Below are positions 42,475-55,340 of a stretch of DNA of 64,000 nucleotides, one piece after another. Below the pieces are notes generated by a model. That model made no database searches and was not told where the DNA came from. It worked only from the letters and a program-made list of their open reading frames with translations. Made by a program: the position numbers and the translations under genes. Where the stretch lies: positions 62,001-126,000 of the forward strand of contig JABFSH010000008.1 in assembly GCA_013140705.1 (NCBI GenBank), in the 5' to 3' direction. This DNA comes from Methylococcaceae bacterium. Its GTDB lineage: Bacteria > Pseudomonadota > Gammaproteobacteria > Methylococcales > Methylomonadaceae. The first letter of the stretch is position 1; each line of letters begins with the position of its first letter.

Positions 42475-44025
42475 TCAACGTACCAGCAATTCAGGGCCGA
42501 ACATCTCGACAATCAGACGTCTGTATTGTTCGGACTTGGCGGTCTGCAGGTGCTCCAGCGGATTGAAGTTATCGGTAAGAATGATGCCCTTACTGCTATC
42601 CAGCGGCACATTTCTCTCCTTTAACCAGGCAATTTGATCGGCCAGCAGTGATTTTGCCTGCAAATCGATCGGTTGATTGGCTGCCAGAAAAATATAATCA
42701 TTAAAATTTTCACCGGGATCCGCAACAAAAAACGCTTGTTGTGAAAATACCTGGCGCAGGGTTTTCGAAACTGCCGCCAGCGAGGGATTATGACCGCCAT
42801 CATAAAAAGCCACAAAATTGAGTGCCAGAATGCCCTTTTCCGACAACAATCCGCGCAATTGTTTCAAGGTCTCGACCGTCAATAAGTGCGAAGGCTCCGT
42901 GCCGCCGGTAAAGCAATCATGAATAATCAGATCATACGGCCCTTTCAAATGCCGGATTTCATAACGCGCGTCACCGATGATCGACATGCCTGCAGGTGTG
43001 AAGCCGAAAAAATCGACTGCAGCGTCCGCAACCGCCGGATCAATTTCCAGGGTATCGGTCTCGATACCATACTGATCACTCAGCACTTTCTTCATCAAAC
43101 CTGCGCCCAGGCCAATGATTAAAGCGCGCTTCATGGGGGGAGCCATGGCAGGAATCAGACCGACAATACTCTGGTAAGTCAGCCGGTTTTCACCATGGGC
43201 TATCCCGGCAGCGCCAATTGCCGATGCATCGGAGGTCAATACACGAAGGTCCTTTTCGCTTTGATCCATCACCCGTACCCAGCCGTAAAGGCTTTCGTGC
43301 TCGGACAGAATTTTAAATTTGCTGTTGCCTTTAACGTGACCGGCACCGGCGATTTGCGGCAACAGGCACAAACCCAGTATTGTCAGTACCACACAGGGAA
43401 CAAAGGCGGCCGAGGCGCCCAGTCGCTTTTGCTCAAAAAAAGCCACGACAACAGACAACAAGAGCAATACAAAACCCAGGCCGATCAAAATTTCACGAGA
43501 CCCCAACAGGGGAAACAAAAAGAAGCCCAACACCAGCGTACCGACCACACTGCCCAGGGTGCTGACGGCATAGATGGAACCGGACGATGCACCCACGCCA
43601 TCCAGTTGCGTCGTCGAAAGTTTGATGGCAAAGGGACCCACCATGCCTAGCAACGTCAAACTCGGTGAAAACAGAATCAATGCACTAACGAAAGCGCCGC
43701 CGCGTAACCCCAACGGATCTGTGGCCAGCAACACCGGGCGGGTCAGCCATGGAATCAACAGCGTCAGGAACGCCGCCAGCGCAATAATCAGCGAAAGCCC
43801 GGTGCGCTCGGCCCGATCCGCCCATCGACCGCCGACGAAATAGCCAATTGCCAGGGCGATCATCGTTACTGAAATCAAGGACGACCAGACATAAAGACTG
43901 GCCCCGTAAAACGGTGCAATCATCCGCGTGCCCAACAGCTCAATGACCATGACCCCGGCCCCCGTCATGAAGACGGTTAAAAAAAGACCAGCACGACCGC
44001 TGGCATGTAAGGGGCTGTTGCTCAT
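42475..44025 (-). CDS. Fused membrane transporter/spermidine-synthase-like protein
   Basis: 516 residues. Residues ~10-215 form about seven or eight membrane helices (VMVIELLGTRMIAPFYGASL is the conserved opening). Residues ~290-500 form a spermidine-synthase-like Rossmann methyltransferase fold with LIIGLGAGLMKKVLSDQYG, DTLEIDPAV, GDARYEI and DLIIHDCFTGG. This fused family is widespread but its substrate is not established. It lies 72 bp upstream of prsT on the same strand, so the two may be co-transcribed. Confidence 0.83.
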   Translation of the reverse strand: MSNSPLHASGRAGLFLTVFMTGAGVMVIELLGTRMIAPFYGASLYVWSSLISVTMIALAIGYFVGGRWADRAERTGLSLIIALAAFLTLLIPWLTRPVLLATDPLGLRGGAFVSALILFSPSLTLLGMVGPFAIKLSTTQLDGVGASSGSIYAVSTLGSVVGTLVLGFFLFPLLGSREILIGLGFVLLLLSVVVAFFEQKRLGASAAFVPCVVLTILGLCLLPQIAGAGHVKGNSKFKILSEHESLYGWVRVMDQSEKDLRVLTSDASAIGAAGIAHGENRLTYQSIVGLIPAMAPPMKRALIIGLGAGLMKKVLSDQYGIETDTLEIDPAVADAAVDFFGFTPAGMSIIGDARYEIRHLKGPYDLIIHDCFTGGTEPSHLLTVETLKQLRGLLSEKGILALNFVAFYDGGHNPSLAAVSKTLRQVFSQQAFFVADPGENFNDYIFLAANQPIDLQAKSLLADQIAWLKERNVPLDSSKGIILTDNFNPLEHLQTAKSEQYRRLIVEMFGPELLVR

Positions 44026-44940: not shown

Positions 44941-45414
44941 TTACTCATTTTGTATCGAATTTATTTGAGTCCCTGTATGTTGCTTGGCTGCATCCTGACA
45001 ATGGTATTGCAACATATAGCTCTCGGAGATTTTTTCGGTGTGGTTAACGAACACCAGGTAATCGCCTTCACCCGCTGTGAGAATGATATCGGGACTTGGA
45101 TTATAATCGCCTCCGATAGGATCAGTCGCGGTTTTGGTAATACCTCCGGTGGCTGTCGCCTTATACACGACAACGCTCATCACGCCGCCACCTTTGACAT
45201 TATCCCTCACATTGACAAACAATTGATGCGGCGTTTCGGAAGGGTTTTCAGCATCCTTAAAACAGGAAATCGAATACAGATCGGTAGCACCTGCACCAGA
45301 CGCAGCCATAAGACTACCTTCAGTTTCATGGGCAGATACGCTGTTGAAACACGCCAATACCATGAGAAAAAATCCGCACGGCAGTCTGACTGTATTAGAA
45401 ATGCTGTTGTTCAT
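44941..45414 (-). CDS. Small secreted protein with predicted mature N-terminal His (paralog 2 of 3)
   Basis: 157 residues. The signal ends NSVSA, so the mature chain begins HETEGSL. It shares D-x-Y-x3-C (DLYSISC), V-x-HT (VNHTEKISESY), Y-HC and HTGT, with a C-terminal IQNE like the IINQ/LQNQ of the other two. The middle VNVRDNVKGGGVMSVVVYK aligns with IQIRDDSPGGGALTAVATI at 50750. It is the last gene of the minus-strand run DUF4266, DUF3570 fusion, this gene, 104 bp after the fusion gene. Metal binding is inferred from the conserved His and Cys only. Confidence 0.75.
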   Translation of the reverse strand: MNNSISNTVRLPCGFFLMVLACFNSVSAHETEGSLMAASGAGATDLYSISCFKDAENPSETPHQLFVNVRDNVKGGGVMSVVVYKATATGGITKTATDPIGGDYNPSPDIILTAGEGDYLVFVNHTEKISESYMLQYHCQDAAKQHTGTQINSIQNE

Positions 45415-45518: not shown

Positions 45519-48173
45519 CTAAAACGCATAGCTCCAGGTCGCAGAAAGTGCGCCTTCTCGATCCAGTTGATAGCCATTGTAATCCGTACTAACCGGTTGC
45601 AGCCATTCGAAGTTCAAACTGTTACCGGCCAGATCGCCGCCGATCACCGCTGCATTCAAACCCAAGCCAAGATCCCAGAATTTGCCGCCATAGTTTTTCG
45701 AATAGTCCATCGGCCCCAGGGTCTGTATCAAACCTTCAAACTCATGCCTGACCGGGCCTTGTGAGGTGTAAACACCACGCACCGACGCCGACAACCAGTC
45801 CAGCAACTGGTAACTACCCCAGGCGGTCGACTGAAAAATATCGCCCAAGGCATAACCAGACGAGTTCTTGTGTTCCAGACGCTTGGTGCCACTCACTTGC
45901 GCACCCCAGGACCACTGATCCATTTTACCGGTATAGGTCAAAGCCGGTTTGAAATCCCAAGTGCCGCTACCCAGCTGCATGCCGTAGTGGATAATGCCGC
46001 CGGGTACTTTATGGTTGTCCCGTAACATTATCCCCACATCGCCGGTCGGCGCCGTTACACCCAAGGTCAGATTGACATGATGATTGGGCTCGCCCCATAA
46101 TTTGAATAAGGCATACATCCCGGTATCACCAACGCCCCCGGTATTATGACCCACGCCCAGGTGATGTTCGATATGCCTAGATTTGTCTTCAGTGCTGGGA
46201 CCACCAGCCTCAGCATCATCCGGTGTACCCGCTAAATGTCGCATATGCATGTTCATGTTCATAAACTGCGGCATCAACATCAGATTCAGCCAGTCAGTCG
46301 GCGCATACATGATGTCCAGCATGTGCATATGCATGTTCATGTTGTTGGGCGTTACATAACAGGCATTGGCAATGTCGGCACCACAACCCTGAGTAACAAT
46401 GGCCGGATCGGAAACATCGTTAGAACCGTGCAGCATGTCTCCAGCCTGGGTGCTGTACATGTAGCGATAACCGACCATAAAATCGCCGGGCTTGTCCATC
46501 ATATGCGCAAACATGACCCCGGCCGGTATCGGTGCGCCGTGATGATGGCCATGATGACTGTGTTCGTCACCACTGCCGCCACCCTGACCCAAAGCTCCCA
46601 GACTTACTTTTAATGATGCATTGGCAAAGTAATAATCAAAATTGGAATAATCACCTTCGCCACTACCGCCGATCATTAACGAACCGGAGTGAGTGTAATA
46701 TTCAAATCCGGTTTCCAGTGTGACACCTTTCGTAAATTGCTTGCTGATCGAAACGCCGCCGCTCAAGGCGCCATAGCCGGACAAGCGCTGATCGCTGGAA
46801 TAATAAGCCGGTAACAGTTGATATGCGGTAAGTGAATCTGTTCTTGCCTGATTCACCACCAGATACGGCGTATAAAAGTCAGCCGCATCCTGTGAATAAT
46901 AGCGAACTCTCGGTGTGATCGTCCAGCCATTGCCGACCGGTTGCACCCAGTCAGCCGCAATGGTATGGGCATGAATGCCCCAGTCGTCGGCGGCAAAATG
47001 ATAATCAAAATGCAGGGCCGAATCCAATGCATTGATATACTGCACAAAACGCGTACCGACGGTCCACTGATTTCTGATCTCCGGCCTGACTTCCGAATAA
47101 CTCCCTACCTGGGCAGTAAAAATATCGACGGAACGGACACCCTCAATGCCTGTAACAAAATCACGGCCATCGCCAAAACAGTCGGGGCAATCAGGATTCA
47201 AATTTTGATTGGGATTCACAAACAAGGCAGTCACAGACTTATATGGATTGGCCATATAGCCGGTACCGCGGCTATAGCCGACAGAGGCCTGAATCAGCGA
47301 GTCTTTCGTCAACACCTGAGTCAGATCGAGATTCGCCGCCCAATCCTGACGTTTTCCGTTTAAATGTACAAATTGATCAATTACTTCAGCCTGACCATTA
47401 TCCTGATATCTTGACGCATTAATATATGGAGCGGCGTCATGATCGAGAATGGCCTGCGTATCGCTATTGGTATAACTGACACCCACATTCAGCGTGGTCC
47501 GTTTTTGGTTGAAATCGAATCGCCCTCCCAGACTGCCAAATCGTGATTCATAATCCGGTTCGACCGACAGCCCCCCCCCCACATCGATGGCCGCTTCATC
47601 CCATTCGTAGCTGAGCTTGAAATCACCCTGCCGGCGGGTTTCCGGTGATGCTACCGACATTGTATGGACGACCTGAGTATCCGGGCTATAAGTCTCTATG
47701 CCGGTATTCTCGTCCAGACTCACGAACTTCAAGGGCGTCAACGTATTTTTATCGACAACTACTTGTCCTATCCCCAGCACATACGGCGATGCACCACCTT
47801 GCGTTGTTTGATTATTATTGCTGTTCATCGACAGCGGCGCTGTTGACACCGGTGTCGCACCACCCCAGGTGTCCTCGGTATAATTAAAGGCAAATTTGAT
47901 ACGGTCAGCCAATGCTATTTTGGCACCACCGTGAATCGAATCGACTTCAATCGGGTTTCTGTTATCCGGTACAAGACCGTAGAGATTTCGTTTGCCTTCC
48001 TGATAATGGCTGTATTGAAAGCCCACTTCCTCATCGTCGGCAGCCTGTGCCGAACCGGGCATAATCAAACCCGGCAACACCAGGGCCGCTGCGGTCAGGG
48101 CCAGAACACCAGGGTTACTGGAAGCTCTCAGAATATTTTTGGTAACCGGCTGTCCGTTGTGCACCGTGGCCAT
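45519..48173 (-). CDS. DUF3570 outer-membrane protein fused to a second barrel-like domain
   Basis: 884 residues from the ATG at 48173, which has GAAGG four bases ahead; a longer frame re-reads the DUF4266 gene. The signal ends GSAQA. Residues ~45-470 match DUF3570 (DEEVGFQYSHYQEGKRNLYG). A linker near 545-565 is His-rich (DEHSHHGHHHGAPIP). Residues ~570-884 resemble the outer-membrane MetA/phenol-degradation-type transporter group (GDFMVGYRYMY, MHMHMLDIMYAPTDWLNLML, then LGVTAPTGDVGIM) and end in the barrel signal ATWSYAF. The Met/His density (NMNMHMHML, NMNMHMRHL) suggests metal-ion contact. DUF3570 proteins normally stop at ~400 residues, so this is a fusion. Confidence 0.82.
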   Translation of the reverse strand: MATVHNGQPVTKNILRASSNPGVLALTAAALVLPGLIMPGSAQAADDEEVGFQYSHYQEGKRNLYGLVPDNRNPIEVDSIHGGAKIALADRIKFAFNYTEDTWGGATPVSTAPLSMNSNNNQTTQGGASPYVLGIGQVVVDKNTLTPLKFVSLDENTGIETYSPDTQVVHTMSVASPETRRQGDFKLSYEWDEAAIDVGGGLSVEPDYESRFGSLGGRFDFNQKRTTLNVGVSYTNSDTQAILDHDAAPYINASRYQDNGQAEVIDQFVHLNGKRQDWAANLDLTQVLTKDSLIQASVGYSRGTGYMANPYKSVTALFVNPNQNLNPDCPDCFGDGRDFVTGIEGVRSVDIFTAQVGSYSEVRPEIRNQWTVGTRFVQYINALDSALHFDYHFAADDWGIHAHTIAADWVQPVGNGWTITPRVRYYSQDAADFYTPYLVVNQARTDSLTAYQLLPAYYSSDQRLSGYGALSGGVSISKQFTKGVTLETGFEYYTHSGSLMIGGSGEGDYSNFDYYFANASLKVSLGALGQGGGSGDEHSHHGHHHGAPIPAGVMFAHMMDKPGDFMVGYRYMYSTQAGDMLHGSNDVSDPAIVTQGCGADIANACYVTPNNMNMHMHMLDIMYAPTDWLNLMLMPQFMNMNMHMRHLAGTPDDAEAGGPSTEDKSRHIEHHLGVGHNTGGVGDTGMYALFKLWGEPNHHVNLTLGVTAPTGDVGIMLRDNHKVPGGIIHYGMQLGSGTWDFKPALTYTGKMDQWSWGAQVSGTKRLEHKNSSGYALGDIFQSTAWGSYQLLDWLSASVRGVYTSQGPVRHEFEGLIQTLGPMDYSKNYGGKFWDLGLGLNAAVIGGDLAGNSLNFEWLQPVSTDYNGYQLDREGALSATWSYAF

Positions 48174-48189
48174 GAAACCTTCACCAGAA

Positions 48190-48414
48190 TTAGTAACAGC
48201 CACAACCACCTCCACCGCTTGAACCGCTGCTGGCTGCCGCTTCCCGGCTGCCATAGTTGTGTCCGCGCATGGTATTCAGCATGGGATAGGGATCCAGCGC
48301 CATCTGCGACTTGGCAAGAGTGCCGCGTTCCCAGGGCTGCACAGGCGCACACCCCGCTATGTACAGACTACTGAATACCAGCAGCCAATTGAAACTAATA
48401 ATAAATTTTCTCAT
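48190..48414 (-). CDS. DUF4266 small lipoprotein
   Basis: 74 residues. The signal ends YIAGC, giving a lipidated Cys near 21. The motif VQPWERGTLAKSQMALDP and the glycine-rich tail ending GGGGCGCY identify DUF4266. DUF4266 and DUF3570 genes are usually neighbours, often with a thioredoxin-like gene and ApbE. Here DUF3570 follows after 16 bp and a thioredoxin-like gene lies 1.4 kb upstream, but no ApbE is present. The C-terminal CGC could be a thiol or metal site. Confidence 0.88.
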   Translation of the reverse strand: MRKFIISFNWLLVFSSLYIAGCAPVQPWERGTLAKSQMALDPYPMLNTMRGHNYGSREAAASSGSSGGGGCGCY

Positions 48415-48589: not shown

Positions 48590-49236
48590 ACAGCCTTACC
48601 CCCCCTCTCCTGCTGGAGAGGGGGGGTAAGGAGATTTAGAATAAAGTGATCGCTTCAGCCTTCCCTCTAAACCAATCCTTCAGGTCTTTGGAAACTAAAT
48701 CATTAACCTGGGTTGATGAAAAAATTATGTAAATTTATTTTATTTCTCCTCACCCAACCCTCTCCAGCAGGAGAGGGCTTTTCTGCTGTATCTTAAAGTC
48801 CTGAAGCTATACTCATCGCACTTAAAAAATTCGGCACATTCGCCCCCTCTCCAACAGGAGAGGGCTTTTTCTGCAGTATCCTAAACGCCAGCAGCTATGT
48901 ACTCTATCGCATCCGTGCATGACGCCAGCACATTTAACCCCCTCTCCTGCTGGAGAGGGTCGGGGTGAGGAGATTTAGAATAAACTGATCGCTTCTGACT
49001 TCCCTCTAAATCAATCCTTCAGGTCTTTGGAAACTAAATCATTAACCGGTGCTGATGAAAAAATTATGTAAATTTATTTTATTTCTCCTCACCCAACCCT
49101 CTCCAGCAGGAGAGGGCTTTTTCTGCAGTATCCTAAACGCCAGCAGCTATGTACTCTATCGCATCCGTGCATGACGCCAGCACCTTTAACCCCCTCTCCT
49201 GCTGGAGAGGGCCGGGGTGAGGAGATTTAGAATAAT
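48590..49236. repeat. Large direct repeats with CCCTCTCCTGCTGGAGAGGG palindromes
   Basis: The block from GAGATTTAGAATAAA through CTTCAGGTCTTTGGAAACTA and CCTCACCCAACCCTCTCCAG occurs at 48631 and 48970. GAGATTTAGAATAA appears again at 49222, giving unequal units of 339 and 252 bp. Each carries one or more perfect CCCTCTCC(T/A)GC(T/A)GGAGAGGG palindromes, also seen at 39740 and 49690. It lies in the gap between DUF4266 and the thioredoxin gene. Confidence 0.7.
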
Positions 49237-49267: not shown

Positions 49268-49654
49268 CTACTTATCTCCATTTAGACATCCATCAGGGTG
49301 GTCTGTATTCAAGCCATACTCAATTCCTTCTATTAGCCGACGAATAACCTCTAAAACACCGTCACTATTTTCAGTGACCTCGTTATTCCAGAACCTTATA
49401 ACTTTAAATCCGCGATTTTCAAGAAATAAACTGCGCTGTTGGTCATAGTCTGCTTGATTGGCGTGCTGCCCTCCATCCAGTTCAATAATCAGTTTTAAAT
49501 CAAAACATATAAAATCAACAATATAAGGTTCAATAGGATATTGTCGACGAAACTTGTAGTTAAATACATTTCTATTACGCAGTTGTTTCCATAACAGTTG
49601 CTCAACATCAGTCTGATTTTTTCTCAGGGATCTTGCTTTGTTAAGTATGCCCAT
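49268..49654 (-). CDS. DUF559 domain protein (endonuclease-like)
   Basis: 128 residues from the ATG at 49654. The upstream extension runs through a repeat and is unlikely. ARSLRKNQTDVEQLLWKQLR, then FRRQYPIEPYIVDFICFDLKLIIELDGGQH and GFKVIRFWNNEV, form the DUF559 core, which resembles the restriction-endonuclease/Vsr fold (D, ExD-like ELDGGQH). Such genes travel with repeats and mobile DNA. It stands between the thioredoxin-like gene and DUF4266, apparently as an insertion. Confidence 0.88.
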   Translation of the reverse strand: MGILNKARSLRKNQTDVEQLLWKQLRNRNVFNYKFRRQYPIEPYIVDFICFDLKLIIELDGGQHANQADYDQQRSLFLENRGFKVIRFWNNEVTENSDGVLEVIRRLIEGIEYGLNTDHPDGCLNGDK

Positions 49655-49786
49655 ATCGGTAATTTTACTTAAAGTCAGAACCAAACGCCCTCTCCAGCAG
49701 GAGAGGGAACGAAGGTGCCGAATTTTGAAGTGCGATGAGTATAAAACAAACATGGAACAATTGCCGGTAAGGCTGGGTAAAATAAT

Positions 49787-50308
49787 TTATTTTCCGGCCT
49801 GTTTGCTTTCGGCAAGCAATTTTTCAACCAGTGCCCGAAACTCTTGCGCTTCGCCGGGTCGAAAGCCTAAATGCAGATGGCGTATGACACCGTTGCGATC
49901 AATCAAATAAGATGATGGCATGGCTTTTACACCAAAACTCTTGGCACAGCGTTCTTCAGTATCTGTTGCAATAGTGAAACTGGCGGGAGTTTGTTCCAAA
50001 AAAAGTTTTGCCTCGTCTACATTTTCATCCAGGTTGACACCAATGACCTGTAAGCCCTGCTCTTTCAGGTCATGATCCAGCGAATTCATAAATGGAAACG
50101 ATTTGATACACGGACCACACCAGGAAGCCCAAAAATCGACATAGACGACTTGGCCTTTGAACTGCTTTAAATCCAGCGACTGCTTGTCCGTAAAAGTAGT
50201 CAACGCACAGTGTGGCGCCGGGCGTTGTTCAGTTTCTGCCGCCTGGGACGATAGCGACCAGAACGGTAACGCCAGGGAGACACAAATGAATAAAATTCGT
50301 AAGTTCAT
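49787..50308 (-). CDS. Periplasmic TlpA-like thioredoxin
   Basis: 173 residues. The signal ends SSQAA. The fold shows VVYVDFWASWCGPCIKSFPF, with the redox pair WCGPC near residues 62-66, GVNLDENVDEAKLF and the cis-Pro region AMPSSYLIDRNG. It reduces or exchanges disulfides in the periplasm. Genes of this type commonly neighbour DUF4266-DUF3570, so its likely clients are those Cys-bearing surface proteins; here a DUF559 gene and repeats intervene. Confidence 0.88.
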   Translation of the reverse strand: MNLRILFICVSLALPFWSLSSQAAETEQRPAPHCALTTFTDKQSLDLKQFKGQVVYVDFWASWCGPCIKSFPFMNSLDHDLKEQGLQVIGVNLDENVDEAKLFLEQTPASFTIATDTEERCAKSFGVKAMPSSYLIDRNGVIRHLHLGFRPGEAQEFRALVEKLLAESKQAGK

Positions 50309-50749: not shown

Positions 50750-51289
50750 TTATTGATTTTGCAAAGGCGCCAGTTCCTCGGTACCGGTATGGGCATTGTT
50801 GATATCTTCACAATGTGCCGTCAATAAATAAGTATCGGCAGCATTTATAGTGTGGTGCACAAACACTTCAAAAGTAGGCTCAATTTCTGTGGTCGGGGTT
50901 CCAACATTATAAACCTTTAGCCTTCTGACCGCACCGGCAACGCCATCGGCTGGAGCAAAATCCGTTGTACTGAGGGATCGTTGGTAACCCAGCGGACCAT
51001 TCGGAGCCGGCGTAGCGTCAAGAATTGTGGCGACCGCAGTCAACGCTCCACCACCTGGTGAATCGTCCCGGATCTGAATATACAAATGATCGGTAGGAAG
51101 TTGCGAGGCCGCCAGCGGATCGGCTATGCATTGCACGCGATAACTGTCCACCACGGAATTACCGCGACCGCCAGCCACACCATTTGTCAGTGTACCCACG
51201 ACGTCATGGGCGAAGACAGGGTTTACGTCCATAATTGCAGTAAGGCTTAAGACGGCCATTAAACTTGTTGTTAATTTTATTTTTTTCAT
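50750..51289 (-). CDS. Small secreted protein with predicted mature N-terminal His (paralog 3 of 3)
   Basis: 179 residues. The signal ends NPVFA, so the mature chain begins HDVVGTL. It shows D-x-Y-x3-C (DSYRVQC), V-x-HT (VHHTINAADTY), Y-x4-HC (LLTAHCED) and HTGT, ending PLQNQ. As with paralog 1, an STN-HEAT protein is encoded just upstream on the same strand, so the pair is a repeated module. The family is not one I recognise. Cu(I/II) binding is a testable guess from the N-terminal His plus three more conserved His and two Cys. Confidence 0.75.
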   Translation of the reverse strand: MKKIKLTTSLMAVLSLTAIMDVNPVFAHDVVGTLTNGVAGGRGNSVVDSYRVQCIADPLAASQLPTDHLYIQIRDDSPGGGALTAVATILDATPAPNGPLGYQRSLSTTDFAPADGVAGAVRRLKVYNVGTPTTEIEPTFEVFVHHTINAADTYLLTAHCEDINNAHTGTEELAPLQNQ

Positions 51290-51367: not shown

Positions 51368-51567
51368 TCTATTAGCCAAAGCATCAGCCAGTGCCAAAAT
51401 TTCGTCATCCCGGCAGGGATGCCGGTATCCAGGTCCATGGAGGTAACTTGCCAAGTACTCAGTCGCTCAACTGAGGCACCATGCAAACCATGCATTCACA
51501 TCCATGTGACTGGATACCGGCATCCCTGCCAGTATGACGGTGCTGGCTGAATATCCTTGCTAATCAG
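51368..51567. repeat. Family C relative, diverged, ending inside a gene
   Basis: Left CTATTAGCCAAAGCATCAGC and right GGCTGAATATCCTTGCTAAT are inverted ends around CGTCATCCCGGCAGGGATGC...GCATCCCTGCCAGTATGACG. The right end overlaps the last codons and supplies the TAG stop of the STN-HEAT gene at 51560. Confidence 0.5.
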
Positions 51568-52399
51568 TTTGCACTTTGTTCAACAATTGCAGCTTGGTCG
51601 TTGCGTACTGCCGGATATTCTCATCGCTGTCCTTGAGGGCCTGCTGCAATAAAGCCATATTGTTGCCCACGCTTTCCACCGCCATTCGACGCACCTCCGC
51701 ATTGACATCCTGCAGCGCTGCCTCGATCTCCGGCAGGGCTGCCTGGCCTTCGCGCTGCGCCAGTTCAAAGACCGCCTGCGCCCTGACACCCGGATCCTTG
51801 TCCGACAGGGCATTTTTCAAAACACGCTGCACCTGCGCGTCACCCTCACGGCCGGCCCGGGCCAAGGAGATAATGGCGTTCATCCGCTCCCGAGGATCCC
51901 TGGCCAATTCCAGCAACTGGTCGGTTATCTCGGCTATTTCCGAATCGGTGGCGGCAACCCGCTGTGGCGGTTTCAACGCAAGTGCGGGGTCATCGTCAGA
52001 GACAGGGTGGACCGATGATATGACCGGCATCTGCAGCAACCAGACTTCCGACTGAGCGTCCTTTGTTTGATAATCGTTTTCCGCTGATCCGTTGCGAAAC
52101 ACCCTATCAACATGGGAACCCAGCAAGCACTGCAACAATGACTTTAAACTGCCTTGACAATCGACCGTCAGTAAAGCATCAGGTAAAGCCAGTGTGTGTA
52201 TGGTAGCGCCGGTTTTTTCGCTGATCGCATCAAACACCTGTCGCAATGTCGCCTCCCTGGCAGATAATCGTAAGCGATGTTGCGCATCGTGCTCCAGGAT
52301 TATTGAATGCCTCGGCTTCGATTCCGGCGGGCTTTGCGCGCCGGATAGACAGGATGTCGACAACAGCAAAAACATGAGAATAGCCCGAATAAGCAACAC
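51560..52399 (-). CDS. Secreted STN-like/HEAT-repeat protein (copy 2)
   Basis: 279 residues from a GTG at 52399, chosen because TGGAG lies 7 nt before it and because it opens a good signal (LLIRAILMFLLLSTSCLSGA). An ATG at 52474 would add 25 charged residues. The STN-like part (LSAREATLRQVFDAISEKTG, VDCQGSLKSLLQCLLGSHVD) is followed by HEAT repeats (DAQVQRVLKNALSDKDPGVRAQ, DVNAEVRRMAVESVG, DSDENIRQYATTKLQ). It is paralogous to 18010 and again sits before a His-N-terminal secreted gene. The last codons coincide with a family C repeat end. Confidence 0.75.
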   Translation of the reverse strand: MLLIRAILMFLLLSTSCLSGAQSPPESKPRHSIILEHDAQHRLRLSAREATLRQVFDAISEKTGATIHTLALPDALLTVDCQGSLKSLLQCLLGSHVDRVFRNGSAENDYQTKDAQSEVWLLQMPVISSVHPVSDDDPALALKPPQRVAATDSEIAEITDQLLELARDPRERMNAIISLARAGREGDAQVQRVLKNALSDKDPGVRAQAVFELAQREGQAALPEIEAALQDVNAEVRRMAVESVGNNMALLQQALKDSDENIRQYATTKLQLLNKVQTD

Positions 52400-52698
52400 C
52401 GAATGACTCCAGATTTCCTGTTGATTTCGACCTCTACTGTCTAACCGAGCCTTTGTTGCTCGTAGGTCTCGCATGATTTATATCACTTTGCGCTTCATGC
52501 TTTAACGTCGAACACTCGTTGAAACATGAAGCCGAGCAGATATTTCCTGAACAAACACCTGAAGCTCATTGATTTGAACAATTTGATACAGCCTCAATCC
52601 TTTGACTGGCGAATCCATTCGAAACTGGATTGAACTGCATTCCCTTCATCGCGAATTCCCCGGCAGAACCCGAACGAAATCCCGATAACCCGTGCGCT

Positions 52699-54404: not shown

Positions 54405-55340
54405 TTATCTGAACATGTTTCCGTTAGCACCGGCAGCAGGTGTTATGCCAACACCCCAACCAGGGAACTGCAATGCATTGATGTCGTCAGCCGATGGTTT
54501 GACAGTGATCGTGAAAACCGGATTAGTACCGCCCGCTGGCACACAGTTGGCAGGATATGGGTTGACAACAGGATCGCGATTAATTGTCAGATTCGTTGTG
54601 GCGGCACCATTTTCTGTAACTTGAGGAGGGAAGGCACTGGTAGCAAGACCCGGCGTGGTGTTATCAAGCCACAGGTTATAGCCGATGCCGGCAGTCTCCG
54701 AACCCGGAAGACCGGCAGGATTAGCCGCAACGAAAGGTGGCTGGGGCGTTGGCTTGGAGATATCAGCCACTGCAACAGCGATCACCAATTTGTCTGCGCA
54801 CAAATCAGCAGTTGTCAAGGCATTTGGATTGGCGGCAGGTAAAATTGATCTGAAATGCGGGGCAGCAAAGCGGAAAGGCACTTCACCGTGCAGGTTAACT
54901 TGCAGCAAACCTTTGGTTGATACCCAGCCAATGGTTTGATTGGAGGCATTGGCCTGTTCAATTTGCTGACTAAAAACATCTTTGCTTTGCACCAATTGTG
55001 GCGCACCGGCTACAGAAACCCATGGCAAAAGACCTGTTGTGTTGGCACCAGCCGCGCTGGTTGAAAAGAAATCACCCAGGTTGCTAACCGAGGCACCTAC
55101 GCCGGTACGACCCAGTATAGGATTGACGGTCGGGAACACAACCGATTGAGCAACAACCGGTGTTGGAGGAGTAGTATGGTTAACTGCATGATTAACGCCG
55201 ACACGGCTGAAGCCTGTTCCGCCACTGTTAATTGCATTCAAAATACTGGCATGCGCAAAAGCTGCCTGGCCTGCGCCCATCATTAATACTGTGCCTACAC
55301 CTAATGTAACTGCTTTCAATTGTTTAGCGCTTAATTTCAT
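54405..55340 (-). CDS. Secreted protein of unknown family with predicted mature N-terminal His
   Basis: 311 residues; I do not recognise the family. The signal ends QAAFA, so the mature chain begins HASILNAINSGG. It is Pro/Ala/Asn-rich, with NHAVNHTT near 50, VNLHGEVPFRFAAPHFR near 165 and one Cys pair (DLCADK, PANCVP). There is no exosortase tail. A strong AAGGAGGA ribosome-binding site precedes the start. The N-terminal His and internal His make it worth comparing with the copper-binding MopE/CorA proteins of methanotrophs, since SACCP-like partners occur in this window. No sequence match is claimed. Confidence 0.7.
   Translation of the reverse strand: MKLSAKQLKAVTLGVGTVLMMGAGQAAFAHASILNAINSGGTGFSRVGVNHAVNHTTPPTPVVAQSVVFPTVNPILGRTGVGASVSNLGDFFSTSAAGANTTGLLPWVSVAGAPQLVQSKDVFSQQIEQANASNQTIGWVSTKGLLQVNLHGEVPFRFAAPHFRSILPAANPNALTTADLCADKLVIAVAVADISKPTPQPPFVAANPAGLPGSETAGIGYNLWLDNTTPGLATSAFPPQVTENGAATTNLTINRDPVVNPYPANCVPAGGTNPVFTITVKPSADDINALQFPGWGVGITPAAGANGNMFR

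Follow-up and report, generated by a model that had tools for sequence, protein, structure and literature searches.

The fused gene and its authenticity

The window, that is, the whole stretch of 64,000 nucleotides analysed here, comes from a Methylococcaceae bacterium and carries on its reverse strand, at 45519..48173, a gene for a predicted two-barrel outer-membrane protein of 884 amino acids. Judging from the open reading frame, its translation and Pfam matches, the chain consists of a signal peptide, a DUF3570 barrel, a His-rich linker and a barrel with a methionine ladder. Translation runs from an ATG at 48173 to a stop at 45519, reading through 884 codons without interruption. The C-terminal half, ~335 residues long, has a high content of Met and His; its terminal TWSYAF and the linker stretch GDEHSHHGHHHG, both quoted in the first-pass annotation of this DNA, are present in the protein.

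The fused architecture is conserved across 83 aligned proteins. The host genome (4.28 Mb, 82 contigs, >99% complete) holds two further fused paralogues, on contigs C27 and C66, with ~60% identity to the window copy, and one ordinary unfused DUF3570 gene on contig C73 (L009:1916-3223). The latter encodes 435 aa, in keeping with the unfused form of ~430 aa and with the earlier statement that DUF3570 proteins usually have ~400 residues. Elsewhere, 77 fetched loci from Nitrosomonas and from methanotrophs of the Methylococcales contain the complete fusion. When genome contigs were scanned with the C-terminal half, 80 loci were recovered, almost all of which bear the label Methylococcales or Nitrosomonas (a few have just a broad label such as ‘uncultured proteobacterium’), and every complete gene among them is fused. 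The fusion is therefore confirmed as genuine. The merging of adjacent genes by an assembly frameshift or a lost stop codon, a concern raised for the region near 46500 and for which a poly-C run at ~47571 would be a typical error site, has a negligible chance of being the explanation, because the identical fusion occurs at the two other loci of the host genome and the 77 loci elsewhere. No description of the fusion or of the Met-ladder family was found in open-access full texts.

A conserved gene cluster

The genes around the fused gene follow a conserved order: a HEAT protein, one to three small secreted proteins, TlpA, DUF4266, the fused gene and apbE. Among the 77 loci, TlpA is found in 68, DUF4266, adjoining the fused gene, in ~75 and ApbE in 55. 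The window keeps this order except for a DUF559 insertion and a 157-aa gene in the place of apbE. Directly upstream of the fused gene, on the reverse strand like the other cluster genes, lies a DUF4266 lipoprotein gene (48190..48414; PF14086, E=9e-19), whose product ends in CGCY and belongs to a family with a CXC redox motif. It is preceded by genes for a TlpA/ResA-like periplasmic thioredoxin identified by profile (49787..50308), a secreted 179-aa protein (50750..51289) and a secreted HEAT-repeat protein (51560..52474; PF13646) that is found in 42 of the 77 loci. A secreted 311-aa protein with a predicted mature N-terminal His (54405..55340) belongs to a family that lies upstream in related loci. 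The secreted 157-aa protein at the usual apbE position (44941..45414) is a second member of the family of the 179-aa protein. No apbE gene lies beside the window copy; the two apbE genes of the host genome are on contigs C22 and C39.

The 157/179-aa secreted family has no Pfam family, occurs in 68 of the 80 loci (L046-L125) and reaches three tandem copies at most. A mature N-terminal His is predicted in 66 of 79 members, and two Cys are invariant. The 179-aa protein shares this predicted N-terminal His, together with conserved Cys54, His159-Cys160 and His167, and His159 and His167 are invariant in the closer set. These conserved residues are possible metal ligands. A copper-chaperone fold was considered for the family and rejected, the AlphaFold2 model being a jelly roll with weak matches of the YPM and collagenase PPC type (Z 8-10); no copper-specific structural match to this model was found.

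Several other features of the neighbourhood may be recorded. A DUF559/MTES_1575 nuclease-like ORF (49268-49753) breaks the TlpA-DUF4266 order and adjoins repeated sequence of the CCCCTCTCCTGCTGGAGAGGG type (~48590-48960). The ~311-aa secreted family (L050, L056, L075 and others besides the window) has no Pfam family, and its relatives begin with AHTGVRD after the predicted signal peptide. A gene at 42475-44025, recognized by eye as encoding an MFS/spermidine-synthase-like protein, has counterparts behind the operon in 34 of the 80 related loci. The contig of the window also carries a gene for a pMMO/AMO-type subunit (G000:C64:6874-7572), one of three such matches in the host genome.

Distribution of the fusion

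Across 369 genomes of the class, the fusion is present in four and the pMMO/AMO subunit PF02461 in 11, and all four fall within those eleven. The nominal chance of this overlap is 4e-7 if genomes are independent, a figure that is too small because the genomes are related and represent three lineages at most. Relatives of the Met-ladder barrel are matched in 62 of the 369. In the order, represented by 121 genomes, most have the fusion and some have many copies of it. Within this order the two are only loosely linked in either direction: the fusion is often missing where pMMO is present, and the complete genome G484 carries the fusion but yields no match to pMMO. That the fusion is common in methanotrophs is a point that the first reading had missed. 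In genomes G459 and G465 of genus g283 the fused gene is greatly expanded, each genome having many copies, in tandem arrays on several contigs.

Two predicted barrels in one chain

The whole-protein AlphaFold2 model, built on 71 sequences, has a mean pLDDT of 83 and a pTM of 0.80. DSSP assigns to it ~16 long strands in residues 49-524, where the inner turns are tight and the outer loops long, and 12 strands in residues 565-883; between them the linker falls below a pLDDT of 50 at residues 532-544. In structural alignments of the model, residues ~44-525 align to 16-stranded barrels (BamA, Z 21.6; PelB, Z 20; BcsC, Z 18). Residues ~545-884 align instead to the COG4313 channel 4RL8 (Z 23.6, rmsd 2.7, 253 residues) and to FapF (Z 23), the matches to these two structures spanning Z 22-23.6, rmsd 2.7-2.9 and 244-253 residues overall. 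Long Foldseek matches to TonB receptors, spanning ~900 columns, raised the possibility of a single large barrel. These matches are not real, since their TM is ~0.2 and their rmsd ~21, and since alignment domain by domain gives two barrels. Two separate barrels in one chain are thus well supported by the model, as the first-pass annotation had proposed: the halves align to different solved barrels, with a low-confidence linker between them.

The N-terminal barrel (residues 49-524, 46602..48029, reverse strand) is a full DUF3570 domain, as had been supposed: PF12094 matches residues 25-516 with 387 bits against a cut-off of 25, covers profile positions 3-427 of 427 and reaches E=1.2e-115. The protein does not belong to the TonB-dependent receptors, whose domains (plug, TonB_dep_Rec) are absent from its Pfam matches. 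TonB-dependent copper receptors also differ in having 22 strands, as against the 12 predicted for the C-terminal barrel here.

The two barrels are joined by a His-rich linker (residues 525-549, 46527..46601, reverse strand), which is predicted to be disordered. Over 83 sequences it contains 25% His, compared with 2% and 4% in the two domains, and this enrichment is therefore more than chance composition. Its placement comes from counting the strands of the model from a periplasmic N-terminus, from which we infer that the linker is periplasmic. Of the earlier proposal of metal-linked surface transport, the metal link is supported for the second barrel, with evidence that indicates copper; the linker would lie in the periplasm instead of on the surface, and transport would be a matter of interpretation.

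Predicted flavin sites in the DUF3570 barrel

DUF3570 is a flavinylated redox family, a second point that had escaped the first reading. In Chlorobium luteolum, it has been shown experimentally that DUF3570 is flavinylated by ApbE at two [S/T]GA[S/T] motifs (eLife 2021, PMC8238504). Clusters of this family also hold DsbD, a thioredoxin-like protein and the CXC protein DUF4266, and the role of the system is described as uncertain (PMC8238504). This is the sole text naming DUF3570 among open-access full texts, in which no literature on DUF3570 in methanotrophs was found. The window resembles this system in its full-length profile match, in its flavin-acceptor residues and in its partner genes, both the DUF4266 CXC lipoprotein and a thioredoxin-like gene being near the fused gene. 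It differs in that the described members have ~420 aa, whereas here a second barrel is appended behind, in a Gly at position -3 of the motifs and in having no adjacent apbE.

Family alignment, together with the published motif (PMC8238504), places motif 1 at residues 101-108 (DTWGGATP, 47850..47873) with T107 as the predicted acceptor, and motif 2 at residues 126-130 (GGASP, 47784..47798) with S129 as the predicted acceptor, both on the reverse strand. All 83 fused proteins have Thr as the acceptor in motif 1 and either Ser or Thr in motif 2. In the window copy the motifs read GGAT and GGAS, so that the acceptors are kept and position -3 is Gly in both; among fused relatives, position -3 of motif 1 is mostly Ser, the motif being SGAT in 66 of 83. 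The fused relatives most likely carry flavin, and the window copy may do so. A coupling between loss of the motif Ser and loss of apbE was tried and proved weak, with apbE adjacent in 46 of 61 cases with Ser versus 4 of 11 with Gly (P 0.03, for sequences that are related).

The C-terminal barrel and its methionine ladder

The 12-stranded C-terminal barrel (residues 550-884, 45522..46526, reverse strand) is COG4313-like by predicted fold and marginally so by profile. PF13557 gives 23.3 bits against a cut-off of 22 for the C-terminal half alone and is unlisted in the whole-protein scan; a PDB sequence search of this half retrieved, among barrels, only FapF (E 0.2-0.3). The COG4313/PF13557 channels (Pput2725, PDB 4RL8) and FapF share its fold, with 12 strands in the predicted model. 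Identity to COG4313 channels is however only ~15%, and the Met ladder and the copper context are peculiar to the family of the C-terminal half. Described COG4313 channels have been linked to hydrophobic compounds (PMC4493636), and copper is not among their described substrates. The lead-in to the barrel is invariant as PAG..M..H, and the pair Cys597/Cys605 is conserved. The segment PAGVMFxHM is a candidate for a lumen-occluding N-terminal element such as that of COG4313.

The methionine ladder, defined by conservation and by face parity, comprises M612, 614, 616, 618, 622, 632, 634, 640 and 642 (46242..46340, reverse strand). Invariant in 83/83 fused proteins are M566, M614, M616, M618, M622, M632, M634, M640, M642, M732 and H557, and M612 is conserved in 81 of the 83. 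Nine of the ten invariant Met (M732 being the exception) are located in strands 1-3, on a face that is otherwise polar, the opposite face being more hydrophobic. Because the other residues of their face are polar, the ladder Met should line the barrel lumen, an assignment based on the sequence periodicity of strands 1-3. Unfused relatives from the Gammaproteobacteria and beyond the class keep most ladder positions in 17-25 of 25 sequences; M612, 614, 616, 618, 622, 632, 634, 642 and 732 are kept in 20-25 of 25, position 640 being excepted.

Copper marks in relatives of the C-terminal barrel

Three independent marks tie the barrel family to copper. In one small-genome lineage a PCuAC copper chaperone is fused ahead of the barrel (E=6e-31 and 2e-27). 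At locus L149 a PCuAC gene (E=1.5e-32) lies ~14 bases downstream of the unfused barrel gene. In six genomes the barrel gene is preceded, at ~60-120 nt, by CruR-type uORFs that combine a CXXC motif, a length of ~45 residues and a terminal RAPP; in the scan of 8113 ORFs no others showed this pattern. Of the six, one passes the cut-off of Pfam DUF2946, four match it weakly as their sole match and one has no match, so that five of the six calls rest on the pair of CXXC and RAPP motifs. CruR-type uORFs precede unfused relatives only, being absent from the window and from all fused loci. In Bordetella, CruR is a copper sensor that shuts down an operon for copper acquisition (PMC9426467). These sequence associations make a strong case for copper as the metal of the C-terminal barrel family.

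Known copper proteins of the outer membrane offer partial parallels. The TonB-dependent copper transporters OprC and CrtA/BfrG have a CruR uORF (PMC9426467, PMC12914433), and the unfused barrel relatives share uORFs of this type. No CopB-family Pfam match was reported in any member scanned. CopB/PcoB are Met/His-rich outer-membrane barrels and resemble the C-terminal half in that respect.

Most genes around unfused barrels are unrelated housekeeping genes, besides two siderophore receptors and some two-component regulators; of all these neighbours, only the ORFs immediately upstream and the PCuAC gene are informative. No copper-specific TonB names occur among the receptors near unfused barrels. 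At L135:7101-8915 a PilS/RegB-like histidine kinase and a Fis-type response regulator, identified by profile, adjoin an unfused Met-ladder barrel. Gene pairs of similar size are located near unfused barrels in L133, L136, L138 and L140; only that of L135 was identified by profile.

A proposed route for copper and its alternatives

The reading that we prefer, with a probability of about one half (0.52), is that the two barrels of the protein form an outer-membrane unit for redox chemistry and transport that serves copper acquisition. The DUF3570 barrel would bear FMN bound covalently at two extracytoplasmic Ser/Thr sites, and electrons would reach these flavins from periplasmic thiol carriers, namely TlpA and the CXC lipoprotein DUF4266, and ultimately from DsbD. 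At the outer membrane the flavin barrel would reduce Cu(II), and the resulting Cu(I) would be held or passed by the second barrel via its lumen-facing Met ladder; the periplasmic His linker would capture the metal and hand it on towards copper enzymes, for example pMMO/AMO. Reduction, transport, the direction of import and hand-off are all steps that we infer. By strand counting the flavin sites would sit towards the outside, which is in tension with electrons arriving from the periplasm.

Defence against copper (or silver), in which both barrels would bind, oxidise or expel surplus periplasmic copper and import none, is an unlikely alternative, though the best placed of those considered. Met/His-rich proteins are frequent in copper resistance, and the C27 copy of the host genome is situated after genes for a DUF3240 protein and for a heavy-metal RND efflux set resembling CusCBA/CzcCBA. 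However, a copper-type RND pump at this locus was rejected and no metal is assigned to it, because its nearest solved relative in sequence is the zinc pump ZneA. Among the markers searched, efflux genes are moreover missing at the two remaining copies and at most orthologous loci, and the CruR-type uORFs, which precede the unfused relatives, are of a kind that shuts acquisition genes off in high copper (PMC9426467). At the C27 locus itself (L007:414-7482), the paralogue follows the RND efflux set, the DUF3240-like protein and its own DUF4266 lipoprotein.

Somewhat less probable still is the reduction of iron or minerals, in which extracellular Fe(III), or another acceptor, would receive electrons from the flavin barrel, and the second barrel would be structural or carry Fe(II). 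Some DUF3570 clusters contain the ferrous-iron transporter VIT1 (PMC8238504), and siderophore receptors lie near two unfused C-terminal barrels; the PCuAC fusion and the CruR-type uORFs are nevertheless copper markers. Thioether ligands, too, are typical of Cu(I), not of iron. It is improbable that the Met-rich barrel is a channel for small hydrophobic substrates, as its fold match to COG4313 channels implicated in hydrophobic uptake might suggest, or a redox buffer whose oxidisable Met would be repaired from the sulfoxide by the thioredoxin and flavin chain, TlpA and flavin being in the operon, since this leaves the invariance of the alternating Met and of His557, the copper-chaperone fusion and the CruR-type uORFs unexplained.

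Significance for copper-dependent bacteria

Methanotrophs and ammonia oxidisers rely on copper enzymes. To our knowledge, it is unclear by what route copper passes the outer membrane, and how its reduction takes place, in those that do not use methanobactin receptors. A wider proposal, which we advance tentatively and hold to be somewhat less probable than the reading preferred above, is that a single polypeptide combines a flavin-containing outer-membrane reductase with a Met-lined Cu(I) channel, that it provides TonB-independent copper acquisition in methanotrophs and ammonia oxidisers, and that a widespread, unnamed Met-ladder family stands behind it. If this is true, the reduction of copper and its passage through the outer membrane would be coupled in a single chain, and the DUF3570 flavin system would gain a concrete substrate. 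An unnamed family of barrels with a Met ladder emerges from the analysis as well, and several of its members lie behind copper-responsive uORFs.
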